Part shown: positions 5,297 to 31,723 of the stretch, piece by piece
Layout of the letters: each line of letters begins with the position of its first letter
Numbering within the stretch: the stretch's first letter is position 1
Origin: a virus
Length of the DNA stretch: 31,909 nt
Direction: 5' to 3' (one strand)
IMG/VR virus record: IMGVR_UViG_3300009537_000097
Span: 1 to 31,909 of that record
The notes under the pieces: model-generated
What the model saw: the letters and a program-made list of their open reading frames with translations, nothing else
Database searches by the model: none
Told to the model about the DNA's origin: nothing
Translations under genes and position numbers: made by a program

Positions 5297-5541
5297 TGTC
5301 AGCCGGCCAGTACATTGATATTTTTGACACATACTTCGGTACTAAGCCGACTGTTTTGAGAGTTGATTACGCGTCCGATACCATATGGTACGAAGGCAAG
5401 GCCGAGTCCGGCGCGGCCACTAGCGCTGCCCGCTGGATCATACGCAGATCGACATTAGACAGCCAGGGTCGGATCGTATTGCGCGAATGGGCGCCGTTTA
5501 ACTCCGTTTGGTCAGACCGTGCCAGCTTGACGTACCAATGA
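5296..5541 (+). CDS. small conserved phage protein before the tail fibre
   Basis: An 81-residue protein whose ATG overlaps the DUF1353 stop (TAATG). The segments IWYEGKAESGAATSAARWIIRR and FNSVWSDRASLTYQ recur in short proteins found next to tail-fibre and structural genes of many phages. A compact beta fold is likely; it may be a virion or fibre accessory component. Its stop overlaps the fibre start (ATGA at 5538-5541), so the two are translationally coupled. Confidence 0.7.
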   Translation: MSAGQYIDIFDTYFGTKPTVLRVDYASDTIWYEGKAESGAATSAARWIIRRSTLDSQGRIVLREWAPFNSVWSDRASLTYQ

Positions 5542-8192
5542 AACGCGCAATCCTGATTGTTACCCTGTTCCTCTCCGGCCCGCTGCTAGCCGAGCAGATC
5601 AAACCCATGTACAACCCGGCGACTGGTAAGATCGACCTGATCACCGCTCTTTCGACTACCAGTATCGCCGCGGGTACAGGTATAGCTGTGACGACCACGA
5701 CTTCCGGCGTAACGATTACCGCCACTGGTGGCGGCGGCGCGTCTTCATTGGAGGTTTTTTCAACCTTTGACGGTACCAGATCGAGCCCAACAGCTTCCAT
5801 ATCCATAGGTGACGCATTGAAATTGAGTGTTACTGGTTCAACGGCTGTCGTGACCGTAGATTTCTCCTCCGTCCCGTCACGTTCTGATGTTATTCTCAAT
5901 CAGAATACCCTCCAATCCGGCTCCACGTTCTATGTGTCAAGTGGAACGGTAAATGGGACGCTTATAGTAAACGAGTCTACGGAAAATAAATTCCTCAGAA
6001 TGTACGGCGACACACCAGGCACCGGGCCGAAAAATGTTGTTATTCATGCAAAAACAAAAGAAGGTTTCGGCGTTGGCGGACAGCTTTTTATCGTTGCTTC
6101 CAGCCAGAGCGTTATCGGTGCTACTGGCGTAGCAAAGCAAACGTCCATAAGCCTGTACCCTCCAATCTCAAGCCCCGGCGGTGGGGCCATAATGATGAAT
6201 ATGGACGGTATCACGGCATTGTACATGGAAGCGAATTACACGGAAATGGATGCCGATCTCAGGGTAAACAGGGGGATCGAGGCGACCTACGGTATAAAAA
6301 CGGCGACGGCAACATTAACATCTTTAACTTCAAAAGGTTGTCTTGGAACTAACAGCAGCGGCGATGTTATTGAGGGTAATTGCATATCGGAGGTGACGCC
6401 TGGCTCAACCAATTATATCCAAGTAAGAAACACCCTCCAATCCGGTTCAACGTTCTATGTGTCAAGTGGTACGGTGACGAATCTGAACGTGGCGAATAAA
6501 TTTGTGGTAGGAAATGGGCTTTTGGATTACGTGAGCCCGCATTTATTCTTTAGTTCTCCCTTGGATTATTATGCGCTTAGGGCTGGATACGGTGAGATTT
6601 CAATCCCATCCAACGGCGGGGCATTGGACGTGTCGGCAGAAGGGTACGGAAGCGTATTTTCAGTGATTAATAACAGTGGAGTTGTAGATTTACAAGTCAC
6701 CAATACACTTGATGTTTTGGGGGATGTTATTTCTACTGCGGGTGTAAGCGGCGACACTGTTACCGGAAATACAGTCACGGCTTCCACCGATCTTGTTCTT
6801 GCAAGTCTTTTATCAAAAGATTGTCTCGGAACGGACGGTTCCGGAAATGTTATTGAAGGAACTTGCACAGGAGGCGGCGCATCCTCCCTCGAAGTATTCA
6901 GCCCCACCGCTCAGTCATCGCCAACGACTTCTATTTCGATTGCGGCCCCGTTGAAAATGACCGTTTCCGGTTCAACGGCCATTGTTACGGTGGACGTTTC
7001 CAGCGTAACCCTTCAAGGGAATAACCTCTCGGAAACCTACCTCACGAATTCCAGCGCCACGGCGACGTATTTCAATAAGCTGGCTCCCTACATTTCATCG
7101 GCCAACGTAAACGCCTCGCTCACCGTTACTGCCAACGGAACGGCCGGAGCCACGCCGACCTTTAGCGCCAACCCGTCCTCTGTAACGCTTTACGGAGCCA
7201 GTATTCCAGCCTCAGCGATTGCCGCGGGGAGCCTCGGATCATCCGTTCTTGCCTCATCCTTCCCCGTTACCGGAGTGACGGCAGGAAGCTACACCAACAC
7301 AAACATGACCGTGGACGCGCAAGGACGGGTCACAGCGGCGTCCAATGGGACAGTTGGATCATCGGTAAACGGAAGGCTGAGTTTGACATCCGGCGTTGCC
7401 ATTACTACATCTAATGTTACAAGCGCAGGCACATTGTATTTTACGCCTTACAACGGAAATAAAATATCGCTTTATGAGAGTTCAAATTGGGTTCTGTATT
7501 CTTTTTCACAGCTCTCATTGTCGCTGACATTAACTTCAGGAAAAAATTATGACGTTTTCGTTTACAATAACAGCGGTACGTTAACGCTTGAACTTTCCGC
7601 CGCATGGACAACAGACACGGAGCGCGCGGATGCTGTTATCTTGCAAGATGGTGTTTATGTTAAATCATCGAATACAACGAGAAGATTGGTAGGAACGATA
7701 CGGGCCTCAGGAACGAATGTAACCGAAGACAGCACATCGCGCCGTTTTGTGTGGAATCTATATAATAGGGTAGAAAGAATAATGCGAGCCTTGGAAACAA
7801 CGGACAGTTGGACGTATACAACCGCAACATTTAGGGAAGCCAATGGTGGGTCAACGCCGGGAGTGTCAAGATTTGACTATGTTGTTGGCTTTTCTGAGGA
7901 CTATTTGGATGTTCAAGTTTATGTTCCGGTTATAACTAATGCTGCGATAATATCGACCATTGCTGGTATAGGGATAGACAGTTCTTCTGTTAATTCAGCG
8001 AATTTATTTTATGGATTTACTCATTCAGATACGTTTGGATCGGCGCAGGCATTTTTCAAGGGACATCCAGGTATTGGGTACCACAGCATCAGATGGCTGG
8101 AATTTTCTACCGCCTCCGGGACCACAACATGGTATGGCGATAATGTCGGATTGGCTGTTGGAACCGGTATGCACGGGACGATCAAAGGGTGA
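5538..8192 (+). CDS. long tail fibre/spike protein with Sec signal peptide
   Basis: An 884-residue repetitive fibre. ATG at 5538 overlaps the previous stop and opens with basic MKR, a hydrophobic core AILIVTLFL and the site LLA/EQ near residue 18; the phage-fibre opening MYNPATGKIDLI follows at once. The body is Ser/Thr/Gly/Val-rich with duplicated modules: ASSLEVFS at about 68 and 448, NTLQSGSTFYVSSGTV twice, and a CLGT-x-SG-x-VIEG-x-C unit twice (two Cys each). Near residue 590 the common fibre motif NMTVDAQGRVTAASNG appears. The C-terminal third is non-repetitive and AT-richer, as expected for a receptor-binding tip. It would form the trimeric fibre that contacts the host. The signal peptide is unusual, since fibres are normally made and assembled in the cytoplasm. 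Confidence 0.85.
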   Translation: MKRAILIVTLFLSGPLLAEQIKPMYNPATGKIDLITALSTTSIAAGTGIAVTTTTSGVTITATGGGGASSLEVFSTFDGTRSSPTASISIGDALKLSVTGSTAVVTVDFSSVPSRSDVILNQNTLQSGSTFYVSSGTVNGTLIVNESTENKFLRMYGDTPGTGPKNVVIHAKTKEGFGVGGQLFIVASSQSVIGATGVAKQTSISLYPPISSPGGGAIMMNMDGITALYMEANYTEMDADLRVNRGIEATYGIKTATATLTSLTSKGCLGTNSSGDVIEGNCISEVTPGSTNYIQVRNTLQSGSTFYVSSGTVTNLNVANKFVVGNGLLDYVSPHLFFSSPLDYYALRAGYGEISIPSNGGALDVSAEGYGSVFSVINNSGVVDLQVTNTLDVLGDVISTAGVSGDTVTGNTVTASTDLVLASLLSKDCLGTDGSGNVIEGTCTGGGASSLEVFSPTAQSSPTTSISIAAPLKMTVSGSTAIVTVDVSSVTLQGNNLSETYLTNSSATATYFNKLAPYISSANVNASLTVTANGTAGATPTFSANPSSVTLYGASIPASAIAAGSLGSSVLASSFPVTGVTAGSYTNTNMTVDAQGRVTAASNGTVGSSVNGRLSLTSGVAITTSNVTSAGTLYFTPYNGNKISLYESSNWVLYSFSQLSLSLTLTSGKNYDVFVYNNSGTLTLELSAAWTTDTERADAVILQDGVYVKSSNTTRRLVGTIRASGTNVTEDSTSRRFVWNLYNRVERIMRALETTDSWTYTTATFREANGGSTPGVSRFDYVVGFSEDYLDVQVYVPVITNAAIISTIAGIGIDSSSVNSANLFYGFTHSDTFGSAQAFFKGHPGIGYHSIRWLEFSTASGTTTWYGDNVGLAVGTGMHGTIKG
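5907..6469 (+). repeat. direct DNA repeat within the tail-fibre gene (two copies)
   Basis: A near-identical segment of about 38 bases, beginning accctccaatccgg and ending tatgtgtcaagtgg, occurs at 5907-5944 and again at 6432-6469, differing at two positions. It encodes NTLQSGSTFYVSSG. It marks an internal module duplication and could recombine to change fibre length. Confidence 0.85.
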
Positions 8193-9807: not shown

Positions 9808-10137
9808 ATGGAAATGGCGAATAGTGAACCAATGAAATATGTTCCTACGTCTGTTGTCCGGATAACGAAGTCGCAGGCAGCGGAACTTTCTATCGGAGAG
9901 AAGGTGTCGTTACAATTATCCGGTGAGATCCAGGCGTTAAGAAAATCAGATGACTATTACGAGGCTGAGATTAAGGGCGCCAGCGTGAACGGGATTGAAA
10001 TAAACAAAGCTGATCGAGCGATGAACGAAATGACCGGGACAGACAAGGCCATTAAGTCCGCCGCTGATAAGATCGTCAAGGCTATCGCAAAAACGCCGGC
10101 AGACCATTCTCTTGATAGGATAAATTATGGAAAATGA
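9808..10137 (+). CDS. small conserved protein upstream of the portal gene
   Basis: A 109-residue protein with GGAGG seven bases before the ATG. The first half is a small beta domain (VVRITKSQAAELSIGEKVSLQLSGEI, then DDYYEAEIKGASVNG); the second half is a charged helix (DKAIKSAADKIVKAIAK). No signal peptide. It precedes and overlaps the portal gene by 11 bases, so a head-assembly or portal-associated role is plausible, but no family function is known to me. Confidence 0.65.
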   Translation: MEMANSEPMKYVPTSVVRITKSQAAELSIGEKVSLQLSGEIQALRKSDDYYEAEIKGASVNGIEINKADRAMNEMTGTDKAIKSAADKIVKAIAKTPADHSLDRINYGK

Positions 10138-12223
10138 AATTACAGGCATCGGCGAACCGACCGTATCAACGATCCCGCGTACGCTTGAGGATTCCTATCT
10201 TAAGCGGATGGGAAAACTTATCGAACTTTCAGAAGCAGAGGAGAGAAATCTGAAGGCATGGCTTAAGAAGCAGTTAAACGATTGGGAATCGGATACCTCC
10301 GATCTTCATAAGATACTTGAAGAAGATAACGATTTGGTTGAAGGTTACGTTGATGAACCTTCCGGGATATATGAAGGGTGGGGATCAAACGTGCATGTGG
10401 ATGTCACGGGAATTTACATGGAGGTCTACCAGTCCATTGAAAAAAGGTCAATTTTGGGAGCCGACCAGATTTGGTATGCGGTGCCGGACCCGGAGGCTGA
10501 AGACGCTTTTGAAATAGTGGCCGACATAGACGAAATGCTTAATTACAAGGCACGCAACGAATGGAATATATCTCAAGCCATTCCGATGGCGATATGGGCC
10601 AAGAACCGGGATGGATTATGCGCGGTGCAGGTAACATGGGAGGAAAACTATAAAAAGTCTAACGATGTTATTTTAATTACAAGCGAAGATGAATTTATCG
10701 AACGGTTCCCCGCTCCTGAAAGCGCTGGCGTTGACGAAAACCAATGGAAAGAACTGCGCACCTATGTCGCTCAAAACGCCACCGAAGAAACGCCCGTCGA
10801 GATCCCCATTACGTTTAACAAGCTGGTCTATCATGGCAACAAGGCGCACGTTGTTGAATACGCGGATTTCGTTGTCTTGCCGGCTACCGCACCGAACATA
10901 TATGAAGATTGCTGCCGCGGATACGGTAAGCGGTTCCAGGAGTCAAAAGATGAGATCCGGCCAAAGATTAAAGATGAGATTTATTACAAGCAGTCAGCCG
11001 ACAGCCTTTTATCCAAAAAGCCAAAAGAGGTTAATAGTTACGTTCAGTCCAAGGATTATGTCGAAGGATTGAAGCGCAGCCGGGCCAATGGTTACGTTAA
11101 TTTTGAACTGGTGGTTAAGGGCCGCTTGAAAGGCGAAGATGATGAAGAAGGCAAGTATCTCGTTGTCTATAATCTTGAAAACGATATCCTTCTTCGGTGC
11201 GTTGAGTATTTTTACCGTATTGATTTTTACGCTGTTTTTGTCTTAAACAAGCGCCCAAACAGGCTGGGCGGCGTAAGTATTCCACGCAAGACGCGTGAAA
11301 CAAATGAGGAAGTGGACGTTCAGCATAATCAAAGAATTAACTCCCATGCGATCTCTGGCGTTCCTACTTTTATCACCAGCACAGACACGGATTGGGACCC
11401 GCAGGCACCCGAGAACCGGTGGCGACCAGGGCTCAGGATAAAGACCGACAAGCCGTTCCAGCAGTTTATCGTTCAGCCAACCGACCAGGGGAATTCCATG
11501 CAAGAGGAGGCGAATTCGTTCCGTATATTGGACCTTTCCCTTGGCTCTCCCGCCTCGCTATTTAGCGGTCAATCTGACGTAGGCGATCCTAATGCGCCAG
11601 GGAATAAGACCGCCATGCTGATTAACCAAGGGAATATGCGCATGGAGGACGTTTTGGATGAGGACCGGGACGGCGTTTCAATGATCGGCCAGATATGCCT
11701 TTCTCATATGTATCAATTTGGGCAGAATATCATTAAGTGGACATCCTCCAATATCGGTGCAAATGGGCAGACGCTAAGAGAAGTAAGGACCATCCATCGT
11801 AAGTTTCTTGCAAACGATATTAAGATGCACATGAAGGGCATTAACGTCATTAAAAATCCTGAATCGGAAATGGCTAAGGCTGCGGCCAGGCATCAGCTCC
11901 TAATGGCCGAGCCGCTGTTCGCCAATGACGCCGACCTGAGAATAAAATCCCTGCGTGAGGTTTTGAAAGCCGGGCGCGACCCCGTTGCTGACAATCTTCT
12001 TCCACCGGCAGAAGTCGTCCAGCAGAAACAAATCGAACTTCAAAAACAGGCCATTCTTCAGTTGCAGGCAGAAAAGATAATGCAGGAAAAACAAGCGCAG
12101 GAACAGGCGCTTAAAGAGCGAATCGGAAAAGCGCAACAGGATCTTCAGATACGAAGGCTGGCTGAACGATCCGCCGAAGCCAATCTAAGCAACAATACGC
12201 CCGACGAGGTGGCAAATGGATAA
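10127..12223 (+). CDS. portal protein
   Basis: A 698-residue portal of the size used by short-tailed phages. Twelve copies would form the ring at one capsid vertex through which DNA enters and leaves. Supporting segments are DEPSGIYEGWGSNVHVDVTGIYMEVYQSIEKRS (wing entry), the long alpha/beta middle, VSIPRKTRETNEEVDVQHNQRINSHAISGVPTF (stem/clip region) and SPASLFSGQSDVGDPNAPGNKTA, followed by an Arg/Lys-rich helical region. The C-terminal 80 residues are a Gln/Glu/Lys coiled coil (QKQIELQKQAILQLQAEKIMQ), like the barrel helices of P22-type portals. It has no signal peptide. The start ATG lies in the end of the preceding gene; the end overlaps the next gene by eight bases. Confidence 0.85.
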   Translation: MENEITGIGEPTVSTIPRTLEDSYLKRMGKLIELSEAEERNLKAWLKKQLNDWESDTSDLHKILEEDNDLVEGYVDEPSGIYEGWGSNVHVDVTGIYMEVYQSIEKRSILGADQIWYAVPDPEAEDAFEIVADIDEMLNYKARNEWNISQAIPMAIWAKNRDGLCAVQVTWEENYKKSNDVILITSEDEFIERFPAPESAGVDENQWKELRTYVAQNATEETPVEIPITFNKLVYHGNKAHVVEYADFVVLPATAPNIYEDCCRGYGKRFQESKDEIRPKIKDEIYYKQSADSLLSKKPKEVNSYVQSKDYVEGLKRSRANGYVNFELVVKGRLKGEDDEEGKYLVVYNLENDILLRCVEYFYRIDFYAVFVLNKRPNRLGGVSIPRKTRETNEEVDVQHNQRINSHAISGVPTFITSTDTDWDPQAPENRWRPGLRIKTDKPFQQFIVQPTDQGNSMQEEANSFRILDLSLGSPASLFSGQSDVGDPNAPGNKTAMLINQGNMRMEDVLDEDRDGVSMIGQICLSHMYQFGQNIIKWTSSNIGANGQTLREVRTIHRKFLANDIKMHMKGINVIKNPESEMAKAAARHQLLMAEPLFANDADLRIKSLREVLKAGRDPVADNLLPPAEVVQQKQIELQKQAILQLQAEKIMQEKQAQEQALKERIGKAQQDLQIRRLAERSAEANLSNNTPDEVANG

Positions 12224-14031: not shown

Positions 14032-14252
14032 TTCAGTTGAAAACAATCGTAATAAGCGGCCAGATTCAGATTTTAAATGGCGAAAAGGTATTTACGCTTA
14101 AAAATGAGATCGACAAGCAGGTTAATCCGATCCTCGAATCTCTTGGCGACGATGCCATTGACGTGAAGTACCAGGCTTTGAACGAAACCACGGCTTTAAT
14201 TGTGATCGTTCACAAATCGGCTCCGGTAACGGCGTCGAAGTCAAAGAAATAA
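14028..14252 (+). CDS. small protein of unknown function
   Basis: A 74-residue protein coupled by an ATGA overlap to the zinc-ribbon gene, with AAAGGAG at 14012-14018. It has an alternating beta-helix-beta layout (IQLKTIVISGQIQIL, EIDKQVNPILESLG, TALIVIVHKSA) and a Lys/Ser tail. No signal peptide or Cys. It sits between scaffold and capsid genes, so a head role is possible; no family is recognised. Confidence 0.6.
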   Translation: MIQLKTIVISGQIQILNGEKVFTLKNEIDKQVNPILESLGDDAIDVKYQALNETTALIVIVHKSAPVTASKSKK

Positions 14253-14276
14253 AGTTCAAAACGGAGGAGGAATAAA

Positions 14277-15044: not shown

Positions 15045-15932
15045 ATGATAGCAGGAACAAATTACCAGGACGCTCTTGAGCCGATAGCGATCAAGAACTT
15101 CCAAGTTGGATACAAAGAGAAGCCGATGGAACGTGACATGATTTACACGGTGAAATCGTCTTCAAAGCTAACTGAGACTTACCTCGAGCTGGGCGATATC
15201 GGCGCGATGGGCGAGTTTTCGGGAGACTTGGAATATGAAGACACGAACCAAGGGTACAAGATGACCATTTCGGTCACTGAACTTGCGAAAGGAATTGAGA
15301 TCCGCAAGCTATTTGTACTCACCGACCAGCTGGATGTGGTGGAAGGACTGCCTAAGCTTCTTGGCCTGGCCGCCCGCCGGCGTCAACGCCGCGACGTGTT
15401 CCAAATCTTCAACGATGCGTTCAACACGTCTCTCTTGACCATTGACGGATTGCAGCTTTGTTCGGCGGCTCATACATCGAACAACGGCGGATCGTCTCAG
15501 GCCAACCGCGTGACCACCGCTTTCTCTGCGGCGAATGTGGAAACCATGCGTCAGAACATGAAAGCGAACATGACAAACACCGACCAGCTGTTCGATTCAA
15601 ACCCGAACATGCTCATTGTGCCCCGCCAGCTGGAAGAAGCGGCTTATGAGCTGATTTCTAGCTCCGGTAAAGTGGACACCGCCAACAACAACGCGAACTT
15701 CCATAAGGGTAAGTACAAGCTGCTGGTATCCGATGAACTAGACGACGTTAATAACTTCTTCGTCGTCGACTCGGAGCTGATGAAAATGATGAACCGCTGG
15801 AACACCGTTGCCAACCTGGAATTCAAACAGGCCGAGAACTTCAACGGTATTTCCGCTCGCTACCTGGCCTATATGGTCTACGGTCGCGGAAGCACGGACT
15901 GGCGCTGGGTTGAAGGGGCGGAAGTTTCTTAA
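15045..15932 (+). CDS. major capsid protein (HK97 fold, Mu gpT-like)
   Basis: A 295-residue protein of the Mu gpT-like major head group. Signature regions are the E-loop/N-arm part (GEFSGDLEYEDTNQGYKMTISVTELAKGIEI), the spine helix (GLPKLLGLAARRRQRRDVFQIFNDAFN), TIDGLQLCSAAHT, the P-domain strand SNPNMLIVPRQLEEAAYELI and the A-domain YKLLVSDELDD...NFFVVDSELMKM, ending in RYLAYMVYGRGSTDWRWVEG. It would form the icosahedral shell with scaffold and portal, probably with folding help from the GroES-like protein. GGGAGGG lies before the ATG. No signal peptide. Confidence 0.9.
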   Translation: MIAGTNYQDALEPIAIKNFQVGYKEKPMERDMIYTVKSSSKLTETYLELGDIGAMGEFSGDLEYEDTNQGYKMTISVTELAKGIEIRKLFVLTDQLDVVEGLPKLLGLAARRRQRRDVFQIFNDAFNTSLLTIDGLQLCSAAHTSNNGGSSQANRVTTAFSAANVETMRQNMKANMTNTDQLFDSNPNMLIVPRQLEEAAYELISSSGKVDTANNNANFHKGKYKLLVSDELDDVNNFFVVDSELMKMMNRWNTVANLEFKQAENFNGISARYLAYMVYGRGSTDWRWVEGAEVS

Positions 15933-16488: not shown

Positions 16489-17073
16489 ATGAAATTTAAG
16501 AAAGCAGGATTGTTTGTTCTAGGAATCGTAGCTGTTGGCGTATCGTTGCTTTATGCGGCTAATTACGTTCAGCGGTTCACCGTGGCTGGAAGCCAGGTGT
16601 GGCTGATTGATAACGACGGCTCGACCATGCAGTCCGGTCCCCACAAATTCGGCAATAACGCGACCGCAACAAGCGTTACGGTCCCAACGGTAACTACAGG
16701 TTCTAATTTTTCTACTTATGTCCCCGTTTATAACGTCGGCGCCGCGGCAACTCAGGGCGATGTCCTGATCGCGTCCAATACGGGCACGGGGTACGTTGCC
16801 GTGGCTCCTGCGACCACCGATCTGACCAGCATTGTCGGCGTTTCAGCCGGTTCGATTGCATCCGGCGCTATTGGCTGGATGATCCCGCGCGGCGGCGGTT
16901 TTGCCGTTGTTAAAACAACCGGGACAGTTTCCATTGGCGATACCTTGGTTTCAACGTCCAGCGCTGCGGGATACCTCACGGGAGACGCCACGCCAACCAC
17001 CGGCGCTGACGTTGCGACCGCTATGTCGGCAGGCACCGCAGCCGGCGGAACCGTACTAGCGATTCTTCACTAA
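16489..17073 (+). CDS. decoration-like protein (DUF2190-type) with signal peptide
   Basis: A 194-residue protein with GGAGGAGG before its ATG and a clear signal peptide: MKFKK, a hydrophobic core containing GLFVLGIVAVGVSLL and the site LYA/AN near residue 23. The mature protein is Thr/Ser/Val/Gly-rich. Its C-terminal 100 residues (GDVLIASNTGTGYVAVAP, GVSAGSIASGAIGWMIPRGG, GDTLVSTSSAAGYLTG, GGTVLAILH) follow the small beta-barrel of DUF2190-type capsid decoration proteins, which bind the outer capsid face. A decoration protein with a Sec signal is not expected if capsids mature only in the cytoplasm. It is the first of three consecutive head-tail genes with signal peptides. Confidence 0.75.
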   Translation: MKFKKAGLFVLGIVAVGVSLLYAANYVQRFTVAGSQVWLIDNDGSTMQSGPHKFGNNATATSVTVPTVTTGSNFSTYVPVYNVGAAATQGDVLIASNTGTGYVAVAPATTDLTSIVGVSAGSIASGAIGWMIPRGGGFAVVKTTGTVSIGDTLVSTSSAAGYLTGDATPTTGADVATAMSAGTAAGGTVLAILH

Positions 17074-17095
17074 AAAATAAAAGGAGGCCACCAAA

Positions 17096-17839
17096 ATGAA
17101 GCGGATATTCAAACCGCTCATCACGGTCATCCTTTTATTCTCAGCACAGTTTGCATGGTCGCTGACATTATCCGAGATCCGGACCGAAATAAGACGCAAC
17201 GTTCGTGATACCGCGACCGTCGCAACGCTCCGGACATATTCAGATACCACTTTAAATACGCTCATTAACCAGGCTCAAGACGAAATCGTTAACCAGACCT
17301 GGTGCGTAACGACCTCAACGTCTTACGCGCTGTTGGCCTCCACGAGCTACTACAACCTCCCAACAGACTTCATCGCGCCTGAAGTCGTTACCTTCGCTGG
17401 GTCCACGGGCGTTTCCTACGAGTTAAAAGAGGCCGCCAGACGCAGTTTCATCCAGCAGAACCCGGACTGGCTCAGGCAAAGAGGCCCCCCGGCCCAATAC
17501 ATCATTCAGCAGTCCCTATCCGGCGGCAACCCACTGCTCATCTCCTACTATCCCATCCCATCATCCACTCAGATTGGAACAGTCACCATTACCTACTATA
17601 AACAGGTCGATGACCTATCCTCTGATTCCGACGTTCCCTTTGACGGACTCAATCACCTTTACCCTTTTCACCGGACCATCGTCTACGAGGTGACAGCAAA
17701 ACTGAAATTTATTGAAGGGCTGAGCGCTGAAGGATCGACTTATATCCAGCTCTACCAGTCCGACCTTGCCATCATGGCCAAAAGGCTTTCGACGAGTCCG
17801 AATTATAGTCCTGGCATCGTAGCCGGCCCGGCCAGATGA
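17096..17839 (+). CDS. head-tail adaptor protein with signal peptide
   Basis: A 247-residue adaptor of the type that forms a ring under the portal of short-tailed phages. Evidence is the opening TLSEIRTEIRRNVRD, then YSDTTLNTLINQAQDEIV, the strand SYYNLPTDFIAPEVVTF and a late helical region (FHRTIVYEVTAKLKFIEG). Ahead of this lies a Sec signal peptide of about 22 residues (MKR, a core containing LITVILLF, site AWS/LT). The family's usual start (a TLSEIR-like segment) comes immediately after the predicted cleavage, so the signal is an addition to an otherwise ordinary adaptor. AAAGGAGG lies before the ATG; the end overlaps the next gene (ATGA). Confidence 0.8.
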   Translation: MKRIFKPLITVILLFSAQFAWSLTLSEIRTEIRRNVRDTATVATLRTYSDTTLNTLINQAQDEIVNQTWCVTTSTSYALLASTSYYNLPTDFIAPEVVTFAGSTGVSYELKEAARRSFIQQNPDWLRQRGPPAQYIIQQSLSGGNPLLISYYPIPSSTQIGTVTITYYKQVDDLSSDSDVPFDGLNHLYPFHRTIVYEVTAKLKFIEGLSAEGSTYIQLYQSDLAIMAKRLSTSPNYSPGIVAGPAR

Positions 17840-20322
17840 AGAAGCTGCTCCTCGCCTTCTTCCTGGCCTCCGCGCCCCTGGCCGGCCCGGCCGGGGCGGA
17901 AGTTATTAACATCGCCAAATTCGGAGGTATAAATACCGACGAATCCCCTTTGGCCCTGCAAAACGGTCAATCCCCCGACTCTGAGAACGTCCTTACGGAC
18001 AATGGAGTAGGACTTCAGCCGAGAGAAGGGTTTGTTCAATTTTCAACGGAACCTTCACGCGGATTGTGGTCGTTTGGAAAGACGGACGGAACCCGGTATC
18101 TGATTGCGGTTTCCAGCGGGCACTTGAAAGCAACAACTGGAAGCAACTTCACGATTCAGATTGCGACTGTATCCACAACGGTGGCCACCCGCGGCGTCAC
18201 ATTGGGGAACACGTTTTATTTCATGAATACCGTCGATGGTCTAAAGGCATGGGACGGAACAGCCACGACTACGGTTGATCCGACAAAAAAGGGGATCGCG
18301 ATAGCCGCCTATAAAGGGCGTTTGGTTATCGGCGGAGTAACGGGAAGCGAGCGCACGATTTATCTGTCCCGGTATCTAAACGGTCAGGATTTTACCCTTC
18401 CTTCAACGGAAGACGATACGGCCCCCGCCCAAATCGTTGCTGCAGGGGCACTGGATGAGGGGATATCGGGTTTTTATGGGACTTTTTTGGACCGCTTAAT
18501 GATCTTCAAGCCCAATTCCACGCAGAGCCTTTCAGGAAGCCGAAGAAGCAATTTCAGCTTGCGCACGATCTCGGATTCCGTCGGTCTGACGGATGGAGAA
18601 AGCGTTCGTGATTGCGACGGGAAATTGAGATGGCTTTCAAGAGGCAGAAAGATCTACGAATTCGACGGAGCGTCGTTCTATAAGATCTCCGAGGACGTTG
18701 ACGAGATGTTCGCCGACATTGAACAGGGTGATTCCGCCAGCCGAGAAAATACGCAGACAACTCAATCTGATTTTTCCTCTGGGTCCATAAATTTCCCGAA
18801 TAGCTTGTCGGTAAGTTATTTGCCGGGAAGCGTTCTCATGCCTTTCCCGGATAATTTTTCAACATATAGAAAGGTCGGAGGTACCGATCCGCAGATATGG
18901 GCGGAATTTTTGAGTGCAAATTCAACAGCCTACCTTTCTTCTGGCGGGCTAAGATTGCAAGCGACTAATTTTTCTACAGCAACTATTCAAACAAATGAAA
19001 TTGCAATTAGCACAACTGCCATCGCATCCGGAGTCACTGTTCAATTTTTATTGAGAGATATTGGCACATCCGTCTTTTTTGAACGTCAACTTTTACATTT
19101 TGTAATTTCTACTATGACCGTTTCAGAAATAAAAAGTAAATGCTACGGAACGCCAACGAGCTGCGCCACAGATGATTCTGTATGGTTTTATCGTTGGACA
19201 TCCACCTCATCATTGACAGCAAAATTAAATCTTGGGCGAAATTTTAAGGTCGGAGATGAACCTGTGTATACGGCTGCAACGACGGTTTTGCCAGCTACCT
19301 ATACATTTGTTTTAAATGCGACGAATTATATTTTTAAAATAAACAATTCAGTAAACAAGTCCGGGGCTCATTCATTTTCAAATGTCAGTCCGTTTTATCT
19401 GTCTTTCTGGTTAAAAGACAATGATTCAACAGACCCATCAACAGAATATGCCGTTATTGATAATGTTCGCATAGACGCATCGACATCTGTTTTTACGTCT
19501 AATGTGATTGATGCTGGGGATGCCATTTCATCTTGGGGACCGACTGTTATCTCTGAGACAAATCAAGAAGGTGTTATTTCCTATCAAATTAATTCGTCAT
19601 CTCAATCAGTCTTATCCCTATTTAATCCTTCAAGCTGGACAAGCCTAACGAATGGCGTCGCCCCGTCAATCGGAGTTAATAGGTATCTTGCCTATCGAGC
19701 TATTTTTTACTCAACAAATGCAACAACTTCCGCAAGCCTTGATTCATTATCTGTTAATTGGAATGAGGGGTCTGTTTTAAAAACCGTTTCCGCTTACTCC
19801 AATCAGAGGTATTGGTTGGGCGTTTCCGTTTCCTCGACGGTCAACAACAAGGTCTTCGTCTACGACAAGAAAAATCAATGGCAGAGATTTTCAGGAATTA
19901 ACGCCGATGCCATGACGATCTATAACTCAAACCTTTATTTCGGCAATCCCTACGGTATATTTCAGGCGGAAATCGGCACAACGGACAACGGCTCCGCCAT
20001 CTCCGCTTATTACAAGACCAAGCCTTTGGCAGGCACCAGCTTGGATTTGGGAAACACCTATTCAAAACTGAGGATGACCACGGAAAGAAGCGATGATACC
20101 TTGGGTACGAGTTTCCGCATCGACGGCGACGACACCGATTACAGTCTGGGAAGTTATCAGATGAACCAGAACCCCGGCATCCAAAACTTTAAACTCCCGT
20201 TCTCGTCGGGCGAAGTCCAATCCGGCAGGTACATCGATTTCAAATGGAGTGTTTCGGGTACGACGTTTTGGAGAATCCTAAACGGGAATTTGTACTTCGA
20301 TCCCGATGTCGTGGTAGAATAA
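17836..20322 (+). CDS. tail nozzle/stopper-type protein with signal peptide
   Basis: An 828-residue protein coupled to the adaptor by an ATGA overlap, the same order as the two tubular tail genes of T7-like phages. After a signal peptide (MKK, core LLLAFFLASAPL, site AGA/EV near 21) it begins IAKFGGINTDESPLALQNGQSPDSENVLTD and LQPREGF, typical of the beta-propeller nozzle group. Propeller-like repeats follow (NTFYFMNTVDGLKAWDGT, KGRLVIGGV, YGTFLDRLMIFK, KLRWLSRGRKIYEFDG). Residues about 310-650 are an AT-richer, Ser/Thr-rich insertion resembling a lectin-type beta sandwich (AVIDNVRIDAS). The propeller resumes at YSNQRYWLGVSV and VFVYDKKNQWQRFSG. It would form the lower tail and seal the DNA exit. 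Confidence 0.75.
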   Translation: MKKLLLAFFLASAPLAGPAGAEVINIAKFGGINTDESPLALQNGQSPDSENVLTDNGVGLQPREGFVQFSTEPSRGLWSFGKTDGTRYLIAVSSGHLKATTGSNFTIQIATVSTTVATRGVTLGNTFYFMNTVDGLKAWDGTATTTVDPTKKGIAIAAYKGRLVIGGVTGSERTIYLSRYLNGQDFTLPSTEDDTAPAQIVAAGALDEGISGFYGTFLDRLMIFKPNSTQSLSGSRRSNFSLRTISDSVGLTDGESVRDCDGKLRWLSRGRKIYEFDGASFYKISEDVDEMFADIEQGDSASRENTQTTQSDFSSGSINFPNSLSVSYLPGSVLMPFPDNFSTYRKVGGTDPQIWAEFLSANSTAYLSSGGLRLQATNFSTATIQTNEIAISTTAIASGVTVQFLLRDIGTSVFFERQLLHFVISTMTVSEIKSKCYGTPTSCATDDSVWFYRWTSTSSLTAKLNLGRNFKVGDEPVYTAATTVLPATYTFVLNATNYIFKINNSVNKSGAHSFSNVSPFYLSFWLKDNDSTDPSTEYAVIDNVRIDASTSVFTSNVIDAGDAISSWGPTVISETNQEGVISYQINSSSQSVLSLFNPSSWTSLTNGVAPSIGVNRYLAYRAIFYSTNATTSASLDSLSVNWNEGSVLKTVSAYSNQRYWLGVSVSSTVNNKVFVYDKKNQWQRFSGINADAMTIYNSNLYFGNPYGIFQAEIGTTDNGSAISAYYKTKPLAGTSLDLGNTYSKLRMTTERSDDTLGTSFRIDGDDTDYSLGSYQMNQNPGIQNFKLPFSSGEVQSGRYIDFKWSVSGTTFWRILNGNLYFDPDVVVE

Positions 20323-20337: not shown

Positions 20338-21255
20338 ATGGCTGGAACAGTAAATAGGGTATTCGCTGGTTATGACAGCAAAGGCAACATGGTTTTTAAA
20401 TTCGTCAACGGGCTTACGGGAGAGGCCCTGCCCGACAGGGGACTGGAGGTCCAGGAGCCAAATGGGAGAAGGTCGGATTACAGCGGCGCTATTTACGACG
20501 GAAACGGAAACGCCGTCGCCGACCCTGGGCAGGTTCCGAGCGATCCCGTTGCAAAAAAACCGACAACGCCGCCGCTTAAAACTCATCCCGATTTGACAGG
20601 ACCAGGAAGCACCGACCCCAACGCTGTTACTCGTCCAGATCTCCTCGATCCCATCGCCAAGCCCATCGCGGGAAGGGATACCTATAACTTCCAGCCATTC
20701 CTCGACGAACAAGACAAGTATTTCAACGACCTTCTGGCTAACTTAAAACAACCGTCCTCCGTTGACGAGGCGTTGAAACTCACGGAAACCGACTTTATGA
20801 ACCAGCTTCTACAGGGGATCGACGAGGACACAACCGCTTCCGTTGGAAGCGCGAAACTTGACTTTCTGGAAAGAGGACTCGGCGGGCCGGGCCAAATATC
20901 GGACATTGAAACTTCCGCTCTGAATCAGGCCCGCACACTTGGAGACAAGACCAAGGCATCGACAAGGACGCAATTTGCCCTGTCTGAATTGGGCCGTCAA
21001 AAGGAAAAGGAGTCGGCGTTGACCGATGTTTATAAGACCCGATACGGAACGACCGCTGACTTATACAAGTCCCTCCTTGGTATTCAGGGGACGAAAGACA
21101 CCGCTTTGGCCCAGATTCTGGCGGACATGGAGAAGGAACGGCTGGCGCGGGCGTCGGGGAAGTATGCGCCGTCGAGCGTGGATAGGGGGGGCGGTGGCCC
21201 TTCATTCTCAATAGGGATCCCTACGCCGATTGGTAATATAGGGGTAGGGTTTTAA
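20338..21255 (+). CDS. candidate internal virion protein
   Basis: A 305-residue protein with GAGGAGG before the ATG. It opens with a small beta unit (VFAGYDSKGNMVFKF), followed by a Pro-rich linker and a long helical region (DEALKLTETDFMNQLLQGID, LGDKTKASTRTQFALSELGRQKEKESALTDVYKTRYG), and ends in a Gly-rich hydrophobic tail (SFSIGIPTPIGNIGVGF). It stands between the tail genes and the giant polyvalent protein, where internal or ejected proteins are common. The helical repeats and Gly-rich end resemble ejection proteins, but the match is general. Confidence 0.65.
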   Translation: MAGTVNRVFAGYDSKGNMVFKFVNGLTGEALPDRGLEVQEPNGRRSDYSGAIYDGNGNAVADPGQVPSDPVAKKPTTPPLKTHPDLTGPGSTDPNAVTRPDLLDPIAKPIAGRDTYNFQPFLDEQDKYFNDLLANLKQPSSVDEALKLTETDFMNQLLQGIDEDTTASVGSAKLDFLERGLGGPGQISDIETSALNQARTLGDKTKASTRTQFALSELGRQKEKESALTDVYKTRYGTTADLYKSLLGIQGTKDTALAQILADMEKERLARASGKYAPSSVDRGGGGPSFSIGIPTPIGNIGVGF

Positions 21256-21267
21256 GGGGGCGTTAGT

Positions 21268-21921
21268 ATGCCGAAGCTAAAAAGTTTTTCATTTGACCCA
21301 ATCAATCCGTGGGAACAAAAAAGAAAAAGAGAATCGGAATCATCCGATCTTTACTTAAAGTTATTGGATTACGGTTACGCTCCCGATGAAGCAAGGATCA
21401 TGTCTTTGGGTTACGCCAAAACAGGCCGATTCGAGCCCATCACGACCCGCGAAAAACCACCGGCTACCGGGATCGGCCCGTCCAACCGGGAACCGCTCGA
21501 CCTCCATCAAGAGAAAGCTAATATCAGTCTCAGGAGTAAAGGGTATAGGTTCAATAAAGAAACAGGCAAATTCGATAATGTTCTTCCCGACCAGGATGTT
21601 TTCACCTATGGCCCTGACGGAAAGCCGGTCCGTTCCGGCAGCGTTCCACGCGGATCGAAAGTTTCACCAAGGCCGAAACCGCAGTCGGAGATGCAGAAGG
21701 TTTACACCTACGATGAGGACAACAACCTTATAGAGATTGGCGAGGTACCAAGAGGATCGGCTGTAAAATCTCCTGTTCCAACAGACCCCATCGCAGAACT
21801 ACTCAAGCAACAGGAACTAAAAAAGGTGCGTAAGTTCAAATCAACCGAAGAAGCGGAAAGCGCCGACCTTCCTATCGGTTCTATTGTTGAAGTAAACGGC
21901 AAACGATTCAGGGTTGAGTAA
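21268..21921 (+). CDS. candidate internal virion protein with internal repeat
   Basis: A 217-residue basic protein, largely disordered, ending exactly where the giant gene starts (no spacing). It has a repeated unit: DVFTYGPDGKPVRSGSVPRGSKV, and about 30 residues later KVYTYDEDNNLIEIGEVPRGSAV. A third, looser unit follows (FKSTEEAESADLPIGSIVEVNGKRFRV). The N-terminus has a helical segment (LYLKLLDYGYAPDEARIMSLGYAKTG). AAGGGGG lies before the ATG. It is likely packaged or made with the polyvalent protein; no family is recognised. Confidence 0.65.
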   Translation: MPKLKSFSFDPINPWEQKRKRESESSDLYLKLLDYGYAPDEARIMSLGYAKTGRFEPITTREKPPATGIGPSNREPLDLHQEKANISLRSKGYRFNKETGKFDNVLPDQDVFTYGPDGKPVRSGSVPRGSKVSPRPKPQSEMQKVYTYDEDNNLIEIGEVPRGSAVKSPVPTDPIAELLKQQELKKVRKFKSTEEAESADLPIGSIVEVNGKRFRVE

Positions 21922-24900
21922 ATGGCGCTTGTTCCGCTTGAGGAATCAACGCGCCGCCGAAGGCTGGTCCCGATTGACGAACCCGTCAAACGTAAGCTGG
22001 TCCCGATTGGCGACCGGGAAGCAGGGGTTTTAGACCAACCACCGGGATTCCCGGTAAGAAGCGCTATTCGCACCGCGATCAAAAGCCTGCCTTTCCAGAA
22101 CCTGCCGCCTGAAGTTGAGCGGCTTGGCAGGGCCGAGGCTGCCGGCACGGCCAGGAGCGCGGCTGGTATCCTGCCGTTAATTCAAGGCGGACTTAAGCGA
22201 ACACCATTGGCCCCGCTTGTACCTGAGGGCGATGTATCCGGGCCTTTAATTCGAGCAGCCGAAAGAATCGAGCCGAAAGACCAGGGTTTTATCGAAAAAC
22301 TTCTTTCCGGGCGGATGTCCGATTCGGAACTTTTGGACAGTATTCGCTCCGTGTCGCCTTTAATATCGCAAGCGAGCCCGCTTACAGGTGCCGCCTTATC
22401 TAAAATCCCGACCGAAGAAAGCATCCTGGCTGAATCAGCTTCCAGTGGTCAGGTTCCTTACGGACAAATTTTGACCCGCGCACTGGCTGAAGGGTTTATC
22501 GGTGCTGTCCGGCCTTTGCTTCCAACCAATCCGGTCGAACTGGCCAATCTTGCCGCAGCTCCGCCATCCGTAAAATTTCTTCAAAACGAATTCCCGATTT
22601 TGAGCCGCGATATTGTCGGTATGATCCTTAAAAACAGGGTTAAAGTTCCGGACGAAAAGCTACCGGAAATAATGAAAAATACATTTGAAGTCGGAATGGA
22701 TTCCTACACGAAAGGCGCCTCCGCTCCGCAGGCCAGGAAGGCCATGCTCCAAAACTTTGAGCAGGAAGCCGCGTCCGCTCGCGGTCAAGCAGAGGCTGGT
22801 ATTCGCTCAAGACAAGGAGCGCCGCAGACCGGAACGCTTCCTTCCACCAGAGCGCCCGGCGGAATTCCGGTGACGGAATTGGAGATTCCCGGTAAGGTTC
22901 AGCGTAATGTCGATATTGCCATTGATACCATCAGTAAGGCATTGGGGAAGAAACCGTCTGCCGGGCCTATCGAGGCGCAGGGAACGGTTTTAGGTGAAGA
23001 AGACATATCCGGTATTGCTGGAATTGCAAAGCCGCCGCCTACCCGTCCTATCCAGCAAACACCGTATTCCTCCATTGTCACACCTGAAGGCGCTCAAAAC
23101 ATCGCCTCCAAGTTCCCGGCCATCTCAACCGTATTGGAAGGCCAGAACCTTCCCTTATCACCACAGGATGCCCAAAAAATTATTAAAAAGGCCAATGCCG
23201 TAGGCGAGGAGGCCCTGATCCGTGGTGCAACACCAGGACAGGCCAATGCGGCCGCTGGCGAGGCGTTAAAGGCCACTCTCATGCCCAAGTTGCAGCAGTT
23301 GGCCCAGGCCAAAACACCAAAGCCAAAAACCGTCAAATACGATAAACGGGGTGTCCCGATCCTTAAGCCCGGTTCGGTCGTTTTAACGGTTCAAGACGAA
23401 TCTGGCAAACCAATCAGGATAAAGCACAAGGACGCGCTCGAGTACGCTGAAGGGTTGCATCGGGAAGCTATGGAGAAATGGGAATTTATTAAAAACGATC
23501 CCGTTCGGTCCGCTATCGCCAGAGTTGGGATCGCGCCCGAGCGGCCGGATCAGTTTGGAATTTCCCCTGAGAGCGGTGAGTACGAACGGCTGCCAAAGAA
23601 CGCAAAGAACAAAAACGGAAGGACTGTTACGGAATGGGTCGAGAATCTTAACGAAGGAAAGGCGGAGCAGGATATAGATGCAAGCTATGTCTACGATATT
23701 GCAAAAAATCTTGAGGTCCCGCCCAAGCCAAAAATGGGCGATTCTTACCGGCAGGCGATACATGATCTCGAAGGCGAGCTGTCCGGCCTGTCAACCTACC
23801 AGCCACCGACCGCAGGCGCTTTTGAGGCGCGTGCCGCTTACGCTGAAAGTGCTCAGCCGTTTTACTCCCCGCTGAAACGCGCCATCGAAGCCAAGATGCC
23901 TAACCGGGCGCCGGCGCAGATGGTCAAGAACATCGTAAACAGCCAGGACGTGAAAAAGGAGGAAACCGACTGGATCGAAATCAACGAATGGCTGGACCAG
24001 CAGAAGGGCCCGGTATCAAAAGAGTCTGTCCTTAAATTCATTGATGACAATACCGTTGAGATTGAAGAAGTGGTCAAGGGTGACAAGTCCACGGATTTGA
24101 TCCGAAGGTTCACCCAGCAGATTGAAGAAAAAGGGTACGGGGTTATAAGGCACGACGACGGCGGCTACGAGGTTTACAAGGACGGCCGGTTCCTGCTTGA
24201 CGACGAACTGCCTAAAGACGTTAAGAACCTCTCCGAGCTTTTACAGAAAGCCATAGCGAAAGAAGGGACAAGCAACACGAAATTTGAGAAGTACACGCTT
24301 CCGGGGGGAGAGAACTACAGGGAGGTGTTGCTGACGCTGCCGGAAAAGGTTCCGGATAAATTGCCGGAAGGATTTTATACAAATAAAACTTCGTATGGAT
24401 GGGAGATTGTGAATCGGGAAGGCGGTCGATTCGCGATGCCTACGCAACCGACGGAAACGTTGGCGGTCGAGAAATTTAATCAGGCGCTTAGTGCGGAAGG
24501 CGGTTTTCGTTCTGCTCACTTCCCCGAACCCAACATCCTCGCCCACATCCGGATTGACGACCGCATAGACACTCAGGGCAACAAGGTTCTTTTCATTGAG
24601 GAGATTCAGTCTGATTGGGGGCAAAAATTAAGAGAGAGCGCTGACCTCAGGAAAGTTTCCAAGCCAGAGAGTGTTTCTAAACTTGCGACCGATTTCTTCG
24701 GCAGAGAGATAGCGTCCGGTATTTCTTTCAATCAAATGGATGGTGGCGTGCTGGCTCTTGCTGACAACGATCAGATTAAGCGGGCGATTATCTCGCTTTT
24801 GCCCATTGATATGGTGAATCAACTCGGTGGGAAGGAGGCGGCGACCAAGAAGTTTCTCAGCAATCCGTCGATGATCGGCGCGGACCTCCCCATCGATGCT

Positions 24901-27900
24901 CGTCTTACGGTGGCGCAAGGGATTCTCGATGCGGCGCGCCAAACTTTTGCAAGCACGCGAACAAAACTTCTTGCCGGGCTTAAGGCTGGGCGGGACATAG
25001 AGCTTCTTCCCGCATTGAAGGCAAGTAATCTCACAGCCCGCGAAGTTATAAGCACGCTTTCCCCTCAGAGCCTTTATCATGTGGACCTGTCTCAGGAGGC
25101 CGTCGGTGGCAACATAGCAAGGGGAGGAGCAGAAATATCCTCCGCGCCCGATCTTGCTATACGGGACACGAAACGACTTCCCGCAACCGACGCAGAATTT
25201 CTCAATGCTCCAATTCCGGCAAGCATAAGCGCAAAATCTGGCCGCGGACAATCTTCCGATCTTCGTGGTGAACTTTCTTCCACAAGTATTGCAAAAGCGC
25301 TGGACTGGCATAATCATATTATATCAGAAACAGGCGTTTCAAAACCAGTTAATTACAAGACTGCTAATTTGCCAAAAATGCCTTTTGAAAAATCATGGAT
25401 GGATCTTAGCCTCAAACGAATTCTGCGTTTTGCCGCCGAGAACGGCTACGATTCCATCGCGTGGACCACGGGTTCCCAGCAGGCGGAGCGGTATGACCTG
25501 AGCAAACAGGTAAATAAAATTGAATTTAATAAAACTCGCGATGGCCAATGGGTTGATGTAAATATTTACACACCCGACAGAAAAGAACCTATTAGATATG
25601 GTGATTTAACACATGAAAAATTGAAGGATACCGTCGGAAAAGAACTGGCTCAAAAAATTGTTGATTCAAAAGAAACGCGCGGAGATTTCTCCGGCCTCGA
25701 CCTAAAAATCGGCGGCGAAGGCATGAAAGGTTTTTACGACCAGATGATTCCCTCCTTCCTAAACAAGTACACGAAGAAGTGGGGCGGGAGAGTGGGGGAG
25801 ACAACCTTCCCGGAACAACGCATTGGCGATTTGCCTGCGCCGACGGCCCGTTCTTTTACGGCGCATAGTCTTGATATTACTCCAAGCATGAAGGAGTCCG
25901 TCCTGCAAGGCCAGTCCCTCTTTGAAAAGACTGGCGATCCCTACCAACAGGAGTTAAACTTTGCCGGTGGACAAGAAACCGGTAATTTACCAGCCCAGCC
26001 AGGAACGCCTCCTGGTCCCCGACCAACCGTGCGAGGTGGTTTTAAGGCCATATACAACCCGCACATCGAAGTTAAGTACAAGAAAGTCGGGTCCATCGTC
26101 ATCCCCAACCAAGTCCTCCAGGAACCAGCCGACCTTGCCTATGCGTTCAAAGAATTAAAGAACGAAGCTCAGGAGAATTTCTTTCTTGCCGCCATGAAAA
26201 ACGGCAGGATTGTAGCCGTTGAGCATTTGGGCTTCGGAACCATCGACCAGGTGGCTGTTTACCCTTACGAAACCATCAACCTTATAAACAAAACGGAAGC
26301 GGATTCGTTTCTAATTGTTCATAACCATCCGTCCGGTGAAATTAGCCCATCTCAAGAAGATAAAAATCTAACTATGGCTATTAAAAGAGCCATTGAAAAC
26401 AGCGGCGCGAAATTTAATGGCCATGTCATTATTAACGATGGAAAGTTTGGTTTTATAAATAAAGACATGGGCGTTTCCGAAGGTATTCAAAAGGAATACG
26501 AAAAGACGAAAAACATTTCCGTTTTGAAGAAGTATTTCGAGTGGTCGACAACCAAGGGAGAAATTGCGTCAAGACCGCTGCTAAGCTCGCCGGATAAAGT
26601 TTTTGAAGTATTCAAAGGGATTCAAACAGGCGCGGATGAAGGCGTGGCCTACCTTCTGGATGTTCAAAATAGAACGTTGAACGCGGTTGTCCTACCGCAT
26701 GGCCGGTTTAATACTGGAACAATCCAAAATATCGCCACGTCCTATCGTGCCGCGGGCATTGTTTTAGTTAACTCGAAACTTACAAATAGGGAAGCCGCGT
26801 CATTAAAGGGCGAATTGGGAACGGCTGGCATCCGCTTAATGGATGACATTGAGCTTGACCCGACATTTCGCGGATACAAATCAAGGATCGAGTCGGGAGT
26901 GTTTGAGTCTCCTTCACCTTACAGCTACGGAGCCAAGGAAGATACCGGCGAATTCTTCGGGATCGAGAAGGAGAACGTCGCCGACAAGTACATGCGCCTG
27001 CGCCGGGAGGCGATGAACCAGGGCATGAGCCATTCCGAAGCCATGAAATGGGCCAAAGCCAGGCTCCGCGGCGAGCCGGAGGGCGCCCCCACATCTGAAA
27101 TTAAACCGGCCCAGTCCGAGTTTACCGTTGAAGGCGGGGTCCAGAGTTTCGGCAAAGGAAAGAAAGGCGAGTCCGACATGTTCGGGAGCAAGGGCGGATC
27201 GGTTATCGACGCATTTGAGCCCATCGAAACGCCGGAAACCATCGCGGCCCGAAAGAATTTCAAGCTGGCCGACCGGGCGCTTGAGGTGGTCCGCAAGTTC
27301 GCGGGCCGGATCGGCGAGAAGTACCAGATGCGCGGCGCGCAAGGCCATTTTAATCCCAGGACGAACAATATCCGGATCAACTCCATGAACAACGTGTCCA
27401 CCGTGACCCATGAGGTGGTCCACTTCCTTGACCAGAAGTTCGGGTTCATCAAACCGCTCATGGAAAAGACCGGTGTATCGAGAACCGGCAACCCGATTTA
27501 CAGCCAACGCTGGGCCGCGATGCGCAAAGCCATCACGCAGGCTTACATCGAGTATTACCCTGGGGCCAGGAAGGAGCATAAGCTCCAAAAGAGACTGGCT
27601 GAAGGGCTGGCTGCCTTTATTCAGCAGTACGCCCAGTCACCTTCAACGGTGAGTGCGAAATACCCCGACCTGTCCAAAGTCCTTTTGGGTGAATTCTCCG
27701 CGAATATGGCTGTTCCCCCGGAATGGAAGGCGTCTGCGCCACAATTCAAGGAACTGGTTGATGATGTCCGCAAGATAGCCTCGGACTACCAGAAACTCGA
27801 CCCCAACGAAAAGATCGGGGCTAGGGTGGCTGAAGGGTTAAGGCAGGAGAATGAAAAGCTGCCGTTCATGTCGAAATCAGATTATCTCAAAACCGAAACC

Positions 27901-30510: not shown

Positions 30511-31166
30511 AACGCCCCTTAATGTTCCTTGCGTTTTTCACCATGCTCACTCTGTCACATGGAGCCGAGCAGCCGCCCTACGATGTCAAAGATCCGGCCG
30601 TCTCCGAGAATTTCAGGGAAATCTATCGCGATGTCGATTCACTTCAGAAAGAGACTTCTGTTCTGACCACCAACACCTCTGGCCAAATCCTTTTAGGCCA
30701 GGGCACCGGCGCTGTTCCGATATGGGGGTTTAGGGGGATTGGAAGAATTTCAGTGGTAGCTGGTACCACAACAGGCTCCACAACATCATCGTCATTTGCG
30801 GCCATGACATCTTCAGCCACAATTACACCCAGTTCAACGGCAAGCCGGATACTGGTAATTGCAAACGGGCGCCTTCACAATAGCGCTGTCCAAACAGATT
30901 CTTGCTATGCCACGTTGTGGAATGTGACAGGCGACTACAATATGGCCGGTTCCAATGGCCGGGCGGAGATTGGGTTCAGCGGGTTCCTTGACGCTTCTGC
31001 AATGGCTACTCCTGCGACATTGCTACACATGGATAGTCCGGCAACAACGTCCCCGGTAACGTATCAAGTGCGTTTAAGGAATAGCGCCGGAGGGATTACC
31101 TGTTCGTGGGGCGGATCGAATTCTGAGCCTGCAATGATTCTAATGGAGGTTTTAACGCCGCCATGA
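30507..31166 (+). CDS. fibre/spike-type protein with signal peptide
   Basis: A 219-residue protein overlapping the giant gene's stop (ATGA). Signal peptide: MKRP, a hydrophobic core LMFLAFFTMLTL and a site at SHG/AE or GA/EQ (about residue 19-20). The mature N-terminus (DPAVSENFREIYRDVDSLQKE) is the short helical virion-attachment segment seen in small phage fibres. The rest is Ser/Thr/Ala-rich beta (SFAAMTSSATITPSSTASRILVIANGRLH, YQVRLRNSAGG), as in receptor-binding heads. It is probably a second, shorter adhesin next to the fibre at 5538. One Cys pair (DSCYA, ITCSW) may form a disulfide after export. Confidence 0.75.
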   Translation: MKRPLMFLAFFTMLTLSHGAEQPPYDVKDPAVSENFREIYRDVDSLQKETSVLTTNTSGQILLGQGTGAVPIWGFRGIGRISVVAGTTTGSTTSSSFAAMTSSATITPSSTASRILVIANGRLHNSAVQTDSCYATLWNVTGDYNMAGSNGRAEIGFSGFLDASAMATPATLLHMDSPATTSPVTYQVRLRNSAGGITCSWGGSNSEPAMILMEVLTPP

Positions 31167-31723
31167 AAAAATTGGTTGTTTTTTTTGTAACGATTCTCAT
31201 TTCGACTTCATCGTGGTCAGACCTTATTGTTTTTTTTGATCCAGTCACCAGCGAAGTCCTGAAAGTTTCTTCGGATGCAAGGCTTGACCCGTCCGAATAC
31301 CAAAGGAATCCAAATTACGTTATTCTTACGCAAGAGTCCGACATGAAAGCTGTCCATGCTTTACGCGAAAATTTACCGGACAGATACCTAAAAAACCAGA
31401 ACGGGTCGATATTGGAAATGACGGCATCCGAAAAAACGCAGTCGGACAATCGATTATTATTATCGGTTCGAGATCAAGCGAAAGCGGTTTTCATGTCTTC
31501 TGAACATGACGGAAATGTATTGAGGGCGATTGTCTTGGTTTTGATTGATGAGATCAATACGTTAAGGAGCCGGGACCGGGACCGGGCGGTGGACGTGGAG
31601 AACGCGACCAGTTTAGCTGATTTGAAATCGCGCTGGGCGTCGCGAAACGCGCTGGACGATCGAACTACATCTCAAGCAAAAACAGCGGTGAAAAATAAAA
31701 TTAACAGCGCTCAATCCGACTGA
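31163..31723 (+). CDS. fibre-associated protein with signal peptide
   Basis: A 186-residue protein coupled to the previous gene by an ATGA overlap. Signal peptide: MKK, a core containing LVVFFVTILI and the site SWS/DL near residue 19. The mature start LIVFFDPVTSEVLKV matches the FFDP-x-T-G/S-E-V opening of small tail proteins. The C-terminal half (MTASEKTQSDNRLLLSVRDQAKAVF, NVLRAIVLVLIDEINTLRSR, LADLKSRW) follows the helical tail-accessory pattern in which LRA-x-x-x-VL-x-DEIN-x-LR is typical. It is probably a fibre-assembly or minor tail protein for the adhesin upstream. Its last 23 bases overlap a minus-strand ORF. Confidence 0.75.
   Translation: MKKLVVFFVTILISTSSWSDLIVFFDPVTSEVLKVSSDARLDPSEYQRNPNYVILTQESDMKAVHALRENLPDRYLKNQNGSILEMTASEKTQSDNRLLLSVRDQAKAVFMSSEHDGNVLRAIVLVLIDEINTLRSRDRDRAVDVENATSLADLKSRWASRNALDDRTTSQAKTAVKNKINSAQSD

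Follow-up and report, generated by a model that had tools for sequence, protein, structure and literature searches.

The cytoplasm is regarded as the place of assembly of tailed phages, and we know of none that is built outside it. In P22 and T7, the portal is sealed by the adaptor as soon as packaging ends. The adaptor examined here belongs to the SU10-type podophage family (PF24175; equivalents P22 gp4 and T7 gp11) and shares with it the capsid–adaptor–nozzle gene order and the residue at which the protein body starts; it differs in that all six adaptors of its lineage carry an extra predicted signal of 20–24 aa, against none in the signal-less homologues found. The protein encoded next to it resembles the stabilisation or nozzle proteins (P22 gp10, T7 gp12 type) in gene position and in profile homology over its N-terminal ~250 residues, and departs from them in having a predicted signal peptide in front.

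The coat proteins of inoviruses (filamentous phages) enter the inner membrane via signal peptides before assembly. These too are virion proteins with signal peptides; however, inoviruses are headless and extrude ssDNA, whereas the lineage described here has a terminase, portal and capsid. Sec-exported phage endolysins (e.g., UFJF_PfDIW6; PMC8951688) and SAR endolysins use a Sec signal to cross or enter the inner membrane, as we propose here, but they are lysis enzymes, whereas the cargo in this lineage would be the virion exterior. The absence of signal peptides has been used as support for a phage origin of tail-type proteins (PMC6199706), and our literature search, with preprints and many subscription papers outside its scope, found no earlier description of tailed-phage exterior proteins with signal peptides.

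The Locus and Its Relatives

The window (the whole stretch of DNA analysed) is a 31.9-kb linear virus record with genes for a terminase, portal, capsid, adaptor, nozzle-like, giant and fibre-like protein (table 1). The 2862-aa giant protein carries RadC and LPD38 domains and is one of three post-nozzle products that we call ejection-type by their position. An HNH endonuclease ORF of 229 aa (PF13392, E = 5e-9; 24628–25317, minus strand) lies antisense inside the gene for the giant protein; since the plus frame stays open across it, an inserted homing-type gene, read in reverse, may account for ~230 residues of the giant protein.

Relatives retrieved from IMG/VR by their capsid (58–71% identity) have the same architecture. 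The signal trait recurs in L031, L035, L038 and L041/L039, and L036 also encodes a decoration-like protein of this kind. A host search of genome contigs with the capsid and nozzle profiles gave no match.

Table 1. Features of the window and adaptor junctions in related viruses (a slash marks the predicted cut)
Feature	Position	Strand	Sequence or basis
Protein of unknown family, strong predicted signal peptide, after GroES-like gene	2904..3515	+	MKRLKLFLPLIAAMLFVSISHA; signal scorer
Fibre/spike-like protein, 884 aa, hydrophobic N-terminus	5538..8192	+	MKRAILIVTLFLSGPLLA/EQ; below scorer threshold
Portal, no signal	10127..12223	+	family profile versus annotated portal, E = 1.7e-7
Major capsid protein, no signal	15045..15932	+	PF25209 and PF10124
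Decoration-like beta protein, predicted signal at residues 1–23	16489..17073	+	signal scorer; weak identity, some DUF2190 fold matches, poor model
Adaptor ribosome-binding site	17080..17087	+	AAAGGAGG; 8 nt before ATG
Adaptor ORF	17096..17839	+	MKRIFKPLITVILLFSAQFAWS/LTLSEIRTEIRRNVRD; body starts LTLSEIR
Adaptor predicted Sec signal peptide, 22 residues	17096..17161	+	MKRIFKPLITVILLFSAQFAWS
Adaptor body, SU10_adaptor family	17162..17839	+	LTLSEIR...; PF24175, E = 2.3e-20, residues 24–231
Nozzle-like predicted signal peptide	17836..17898	+	MKKLLLAFFLASAPLAGPAGA/EVINIAKFGG; start overlaps adaptor stop
Nozzle/stabilisation-like tail protein body	17899..20322	+	family profile matches L034 and Microcystis phage protein
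Three post-nozzle genes (305, 217 and 2862 aa), no signal	20338..30510	+	ejection-type by position
Tail-fibre-like protein, predicted signal at residues 1–19	30507..31166	+	signal, then AEQPPYDVKDPAVSENFREIY segment; signal scorer; match to L062:1649
Protein of unknown family with predicted signal peptide, adjoins fibre-like gene	31163..31723	+	signal scorer
L031 adaptor junction			MKRIFIPLSGLLLFVGVAHG/MTLAEI
L035 adaptor junction			MTFKRSFWLLLAFVPSVAWS/LSLADL
L035 tandem second adaptor junction			MRRFKISALCLVASLWLIPSVSSA/LTLGDM
L038 adaptor junction			MKRFIFILGVLSLCARASFS/LTLAEA
L041 adaptor junction			MKKFCLAVLPLFLFSVNCFG/LTLADI

A Predicted Signal Peptide Abuts the Adaptor Domain

The adaptor gene lies between the capsid module and the nozzle gene, and its product scores 74.3 bits against PF24175 (curated cut-off 27), covering profile positions 2–185 of 194. 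Residue 24 corresponds to profile position 2, just past the predicted cleavage point; together with the alignments to signal-less homologues described below, this bears out the original prediction that the family N-terminus follows directly on the cut. The residues ahead of it read as an SPI signal, with a positive n-region, a hydrophobic core of eight or more residues, small residues at -3 and -1 and a length within 15–30 aa. Read by eye, neither the adaptor nor the nozzle N-terminus has a lipobox ending in Cys or a Tat SRRxFLK motif. The ribosome-binding site serves the upstream ATG and not a start at TLSEIR, as had been predicted; indeed, the first residue after the signal is encoded by CTG and lacks a usable Shine–Dalgarno sequence. 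From the sequence, we regard it as confirmed that the extension is a Sec-type signal peptide placed at the junction with the conserved domain, by which the adaptor would be translocated and then cleaved.

If the signal were an addition, alignment with homologues that lack it should leave a gap over the extension only. The signal-less adaptor loci (seven viruses aligned and one more) leave a gap of exactly window residues 1–22. Signal-less PF24175 adaptors from viruses found via their terminase begin MAIVSSNEIL... or MTTINDII..., and the adaptor-like protein of the deposited podophage ctXG1253, which starts MTTRIEDIIIRARDTL...ASRYSDERLL, has no extension. A phage structural protein in the PDB pairs from its own residue 5 onward with profile column 25, in a weak alignment (E = 0.025), and a single adaptor query against viral contigs and deposited phages returned no close relatives. 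The same hydrophobic N-terminus in homologues from model phages had been named as grounds for doubt; it is absent from every adaptor found in ordinary phages. These alignments, the pattern in the nozzle and the recurrence in related viruses support a clean N-terminal addition, as originally predicted, rather than a chance hydrophobic stretch.

Among the relatives, the upstream segment of the L031 adaptor (MKRIFIPL...) is conserved with that of the window (MKRIFKPL). L035 encodes two tandem adaptors (12161–13623), both members of PF24175 and each with its own predicted signal peptide. In L031, a cysteine-rich HNH-like ORF with weak family matches lies between adaptor and nozzle (6343–6804, minus strand) and is possibly an inserted homing-type gene.

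The Nozzle-Like Protein

The nozzle family matches an annotated phage stabilisation protein (L034; hhalign E = 1.8e-5 over 240 columns), with the homology spanning the N-terminal ~250 residues of the nozzle, and its profile is also matched by a Microcystis phage protein (E = 1.3e-6). In profile comparison, no match was obtained for two other annotated stabilisation proteins, and a PDB search with the nozzle profile returned chance matches only. The structure model of the nozzle has a mean pLDDT of 38 and its fold matches are uninterpretable, such that any beta-propeller comparison rests on a poor model. The reading of the L035 nozzle as an unrelated family was rejected, the protein being a remote member of the nozzle family (E = 6e-24).

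Family columns from ~20–24 onward align with residues 8–11 onward of two signal-less homologues, one of them an annotated stabilisation protein. The claim that the nozzle repeats the adaptor pattern is supported, with a predicted signal ahead of the family homology; the proposed cut at AGA/EV after residue 21 (score 6.4) is one of two equally good sites, the other falling after residue 17 (6.9).

Predicted Signals Separate Outer from Inner Proteins

Signals were scored with a home-made von Heijne-type matrix instead of SignalP; in Escherichia coli K-12, this scorer called 12 of 13 proteins that are exported or are lipoproteins, none of 23 cytosolic proteins and 1 of 9 membrane proteins. Across the window and its relatives, 22 of 23 proteins of the outer classes are signal-bearing: adaptors (6/6) and nozzles (5/5, among them those of L031, L035, L038 and L041), both in a small sample of five viruses, fibre-like proteins (6/6, the class comprising those tested downstream of the giant gene) and decoration-like proteins (5/6). 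The inner classes (portal, scaffold, 247-aa pre-capsid protein, capsid, 172-aa protein, two ejection-type proteins and giant protein) yield 2 of 44. Both of these are 247-aa proteins (L038 and L041) that we judged probably false, the cut at residue 36 being preceded by a long polar stretch; their homologues do not share the call. The split is significant at the level of genes when kinship is ignored (Fisher p = 2e-14), and the more cautious figure, given that the classes were set after a first survey had shown which genes score, is that obtained when each class has a single vote (p = 0.002).

Several backgrounds are available for these counts. Taking all frames of the window, 9 of 619 open start codons are called as signals, the true ones included, and none of 31 mostly structural genes does so in three further annotated deposited phages. 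In a broader set of control loci, 24 of 320 genes score; lysis- or membrane-type genes make up many of these, along with a 126-aa protein that recurs in several related loci. When the candidate cleavage sites of the six adaptors are ranked, the homology boundary comes first (of 7–9) in four, second of seven in one and fourth of 12 in the other. At the level of sequence, the predicted signals, their exact junctions with conserved domains and the division of the lineage into inner and outer proteins are established.

The outer proteins other than the adaptor and nozzle are less readily named. The first 48 columns of the protein at 30507 match L062:1649 (E = 2e-12), a signal-bearing tail fibre by PHROG (phrog_4492, E = 8e-41), and in both proteins a common segment, EQPP[YF].VKDPA, begins directly after the signal; another signal-bearing protein, L057:5938, has a C1q domain. 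The protein at 16489 has no Pfam match, and its decoration-like label is a weak assignment drawn from position and from weak DUF2190 fold matches of a model with pLDDT 49. In place of this single gene of the window, L041 has five consecutive genes with signal-type N-termini (11405–14519), one with a weak laminin-G/ConA-like match. Family searches with the 884-aa protein gave no match.

Two further observations concern the left part of the window. A GroES/Cpn10-like co-chaperonin (PF00166, E = 8e-7; 2517–2891, plus strand) is encoded just upstream of the signal-bearing gene at 2904, and a similar order is found in L035 (GroES-like at 3014, then signal-bearing at 3444). A 186-aa protein at 3525–4085 (plus strand) has a polar 45-residue head followed by a hydrophobic stretch (MTVLLLVCVSAKA) and possibly represents two overlapping reading units.

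A Proposed Split Assembly and Its Alternatives

We hypothesize that these are genuine cleavable Sec signals, by which the exterior proteins would be exported to the periplasm and would meet DNA-filled heads upon breach of the inner membrane, a reading that we hold to be probable, if by no means secure. In one short-tailed dsDNA phage lineage, signals would have been fused upstream of otherwise normal adaptor, nozzle, fibre and decoration-like proteins. Head formation should be cytoplasmic, since neither the portal nor the capsid nor the ejection-type proteins carry a signal; these, together with the scaffold and terminase, which likewise lack one, would stay inside for assembly and DNA packaging. 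The exterior parts would cross the membrane unfolded and be trimmed by signal peptidase, such that the trimmed adaptor would begin where ordinary adaptors begin, and would gather in the periplasm of a host that is presumably of diderm type, because the signals are short. With cytoplasmic heads and exported exterior parts, a meeting is possible only when the inner membrane opens, and the two would unite at such a breach late in infection or just after lysis. The holin lesions of lambda can be large enough for the passage of heads. Export, cleavage, periplasmic accumulation, late joining and the place of assembly are what we infer from these patterns. The broader proposition, that Sec signal peptides divide virion assembly in a tailed dsDNA phage lineage between the cytoplasm, for the heads, and the far side of the inner membrane, for adaptor, nozzle, fibres and decoration, with completion only on mixing of the compartments, we regard as evenly balanced between true and false.

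The hydrophobic N-termini may alternatively be uncleaved membrane anchors or membrane-active peptides, which would tether tail parts to the inner membrane or, as virion peptides, aid penetration of the next host. Their cores are strong, their starts are positive, and a good cleavage motif is missing in the L036 decoration-like protein and the 884-aa protein of the window, both below the cleavage-site threshold. Nevertheless, in most of them the small residues at -3 and -1 coincide exactly with the homology boundary, and the core length fits a signal peptide; moreover, the trait is borne by all of several unrelated exterior proteins, the decoration-like ones included, and we consider this reading unlikely.

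Rather unlikely, too, is the existence of two pools, in which an internal start or inefficient export would leave unsignalled cytoplasmic forms that build virions as usual, with the exported pool acting, for example, as a surface decoy or a block to superinfection. An in-frame start at the junction in relatives, with a good ribosome site, had been foreseen as evidence against an added signal. The L031 adaptor does have such an ATG, but its Shine–Dalgarno score, rather than good, equals that of the upstream start, both being weak, and a second, unsignalled cytoplasmic adaptor is thus possible in that virus. The junction start is not conserved, however, being absent from all five nozzles and replaced by CTG in the window adaptor, and an adaptor or nozzle would be an odd choice of decoy.

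It is improbable that the signals, although real, serve tails completed at the inner membrane, with the head on its cytoplasmic side, and that particles then leave by extrusion or budding instead of mixing at lysis. The portal vertex is where exported and cytoplasmic parts have to come together, and the topology would permit this; however, no extrusion or secretin-type gene was recognized among the proteins scanned against families, and the window has at 8524 a DUF5675 gene, of a kind often seen near phage lysis genes. Chance hydrophobic stretches or wrong start codons, for which only the weak Shine–Dalgarno sequences of several coupled genes speak, are scarcely credible given the recurrence in the same protein classes across related viruses (p = 2e-14), the background rate in the window and the silent annotated control phages.

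Should the preferred reading of cleavable signals and late joining be true, the annotation of exterior virion proteins would change, since such proteins could be misread as secreted proteins of the host. In the classical systems the adaptor closes the portal after packaging, and its export would thus need another way of holding the DNA until joining; how a filled head without its adaptor would retain its DNA is the question that this raises. It would also be the first case known to us in which a tailed phage routinely joins head and tail outside the cytoplasm.
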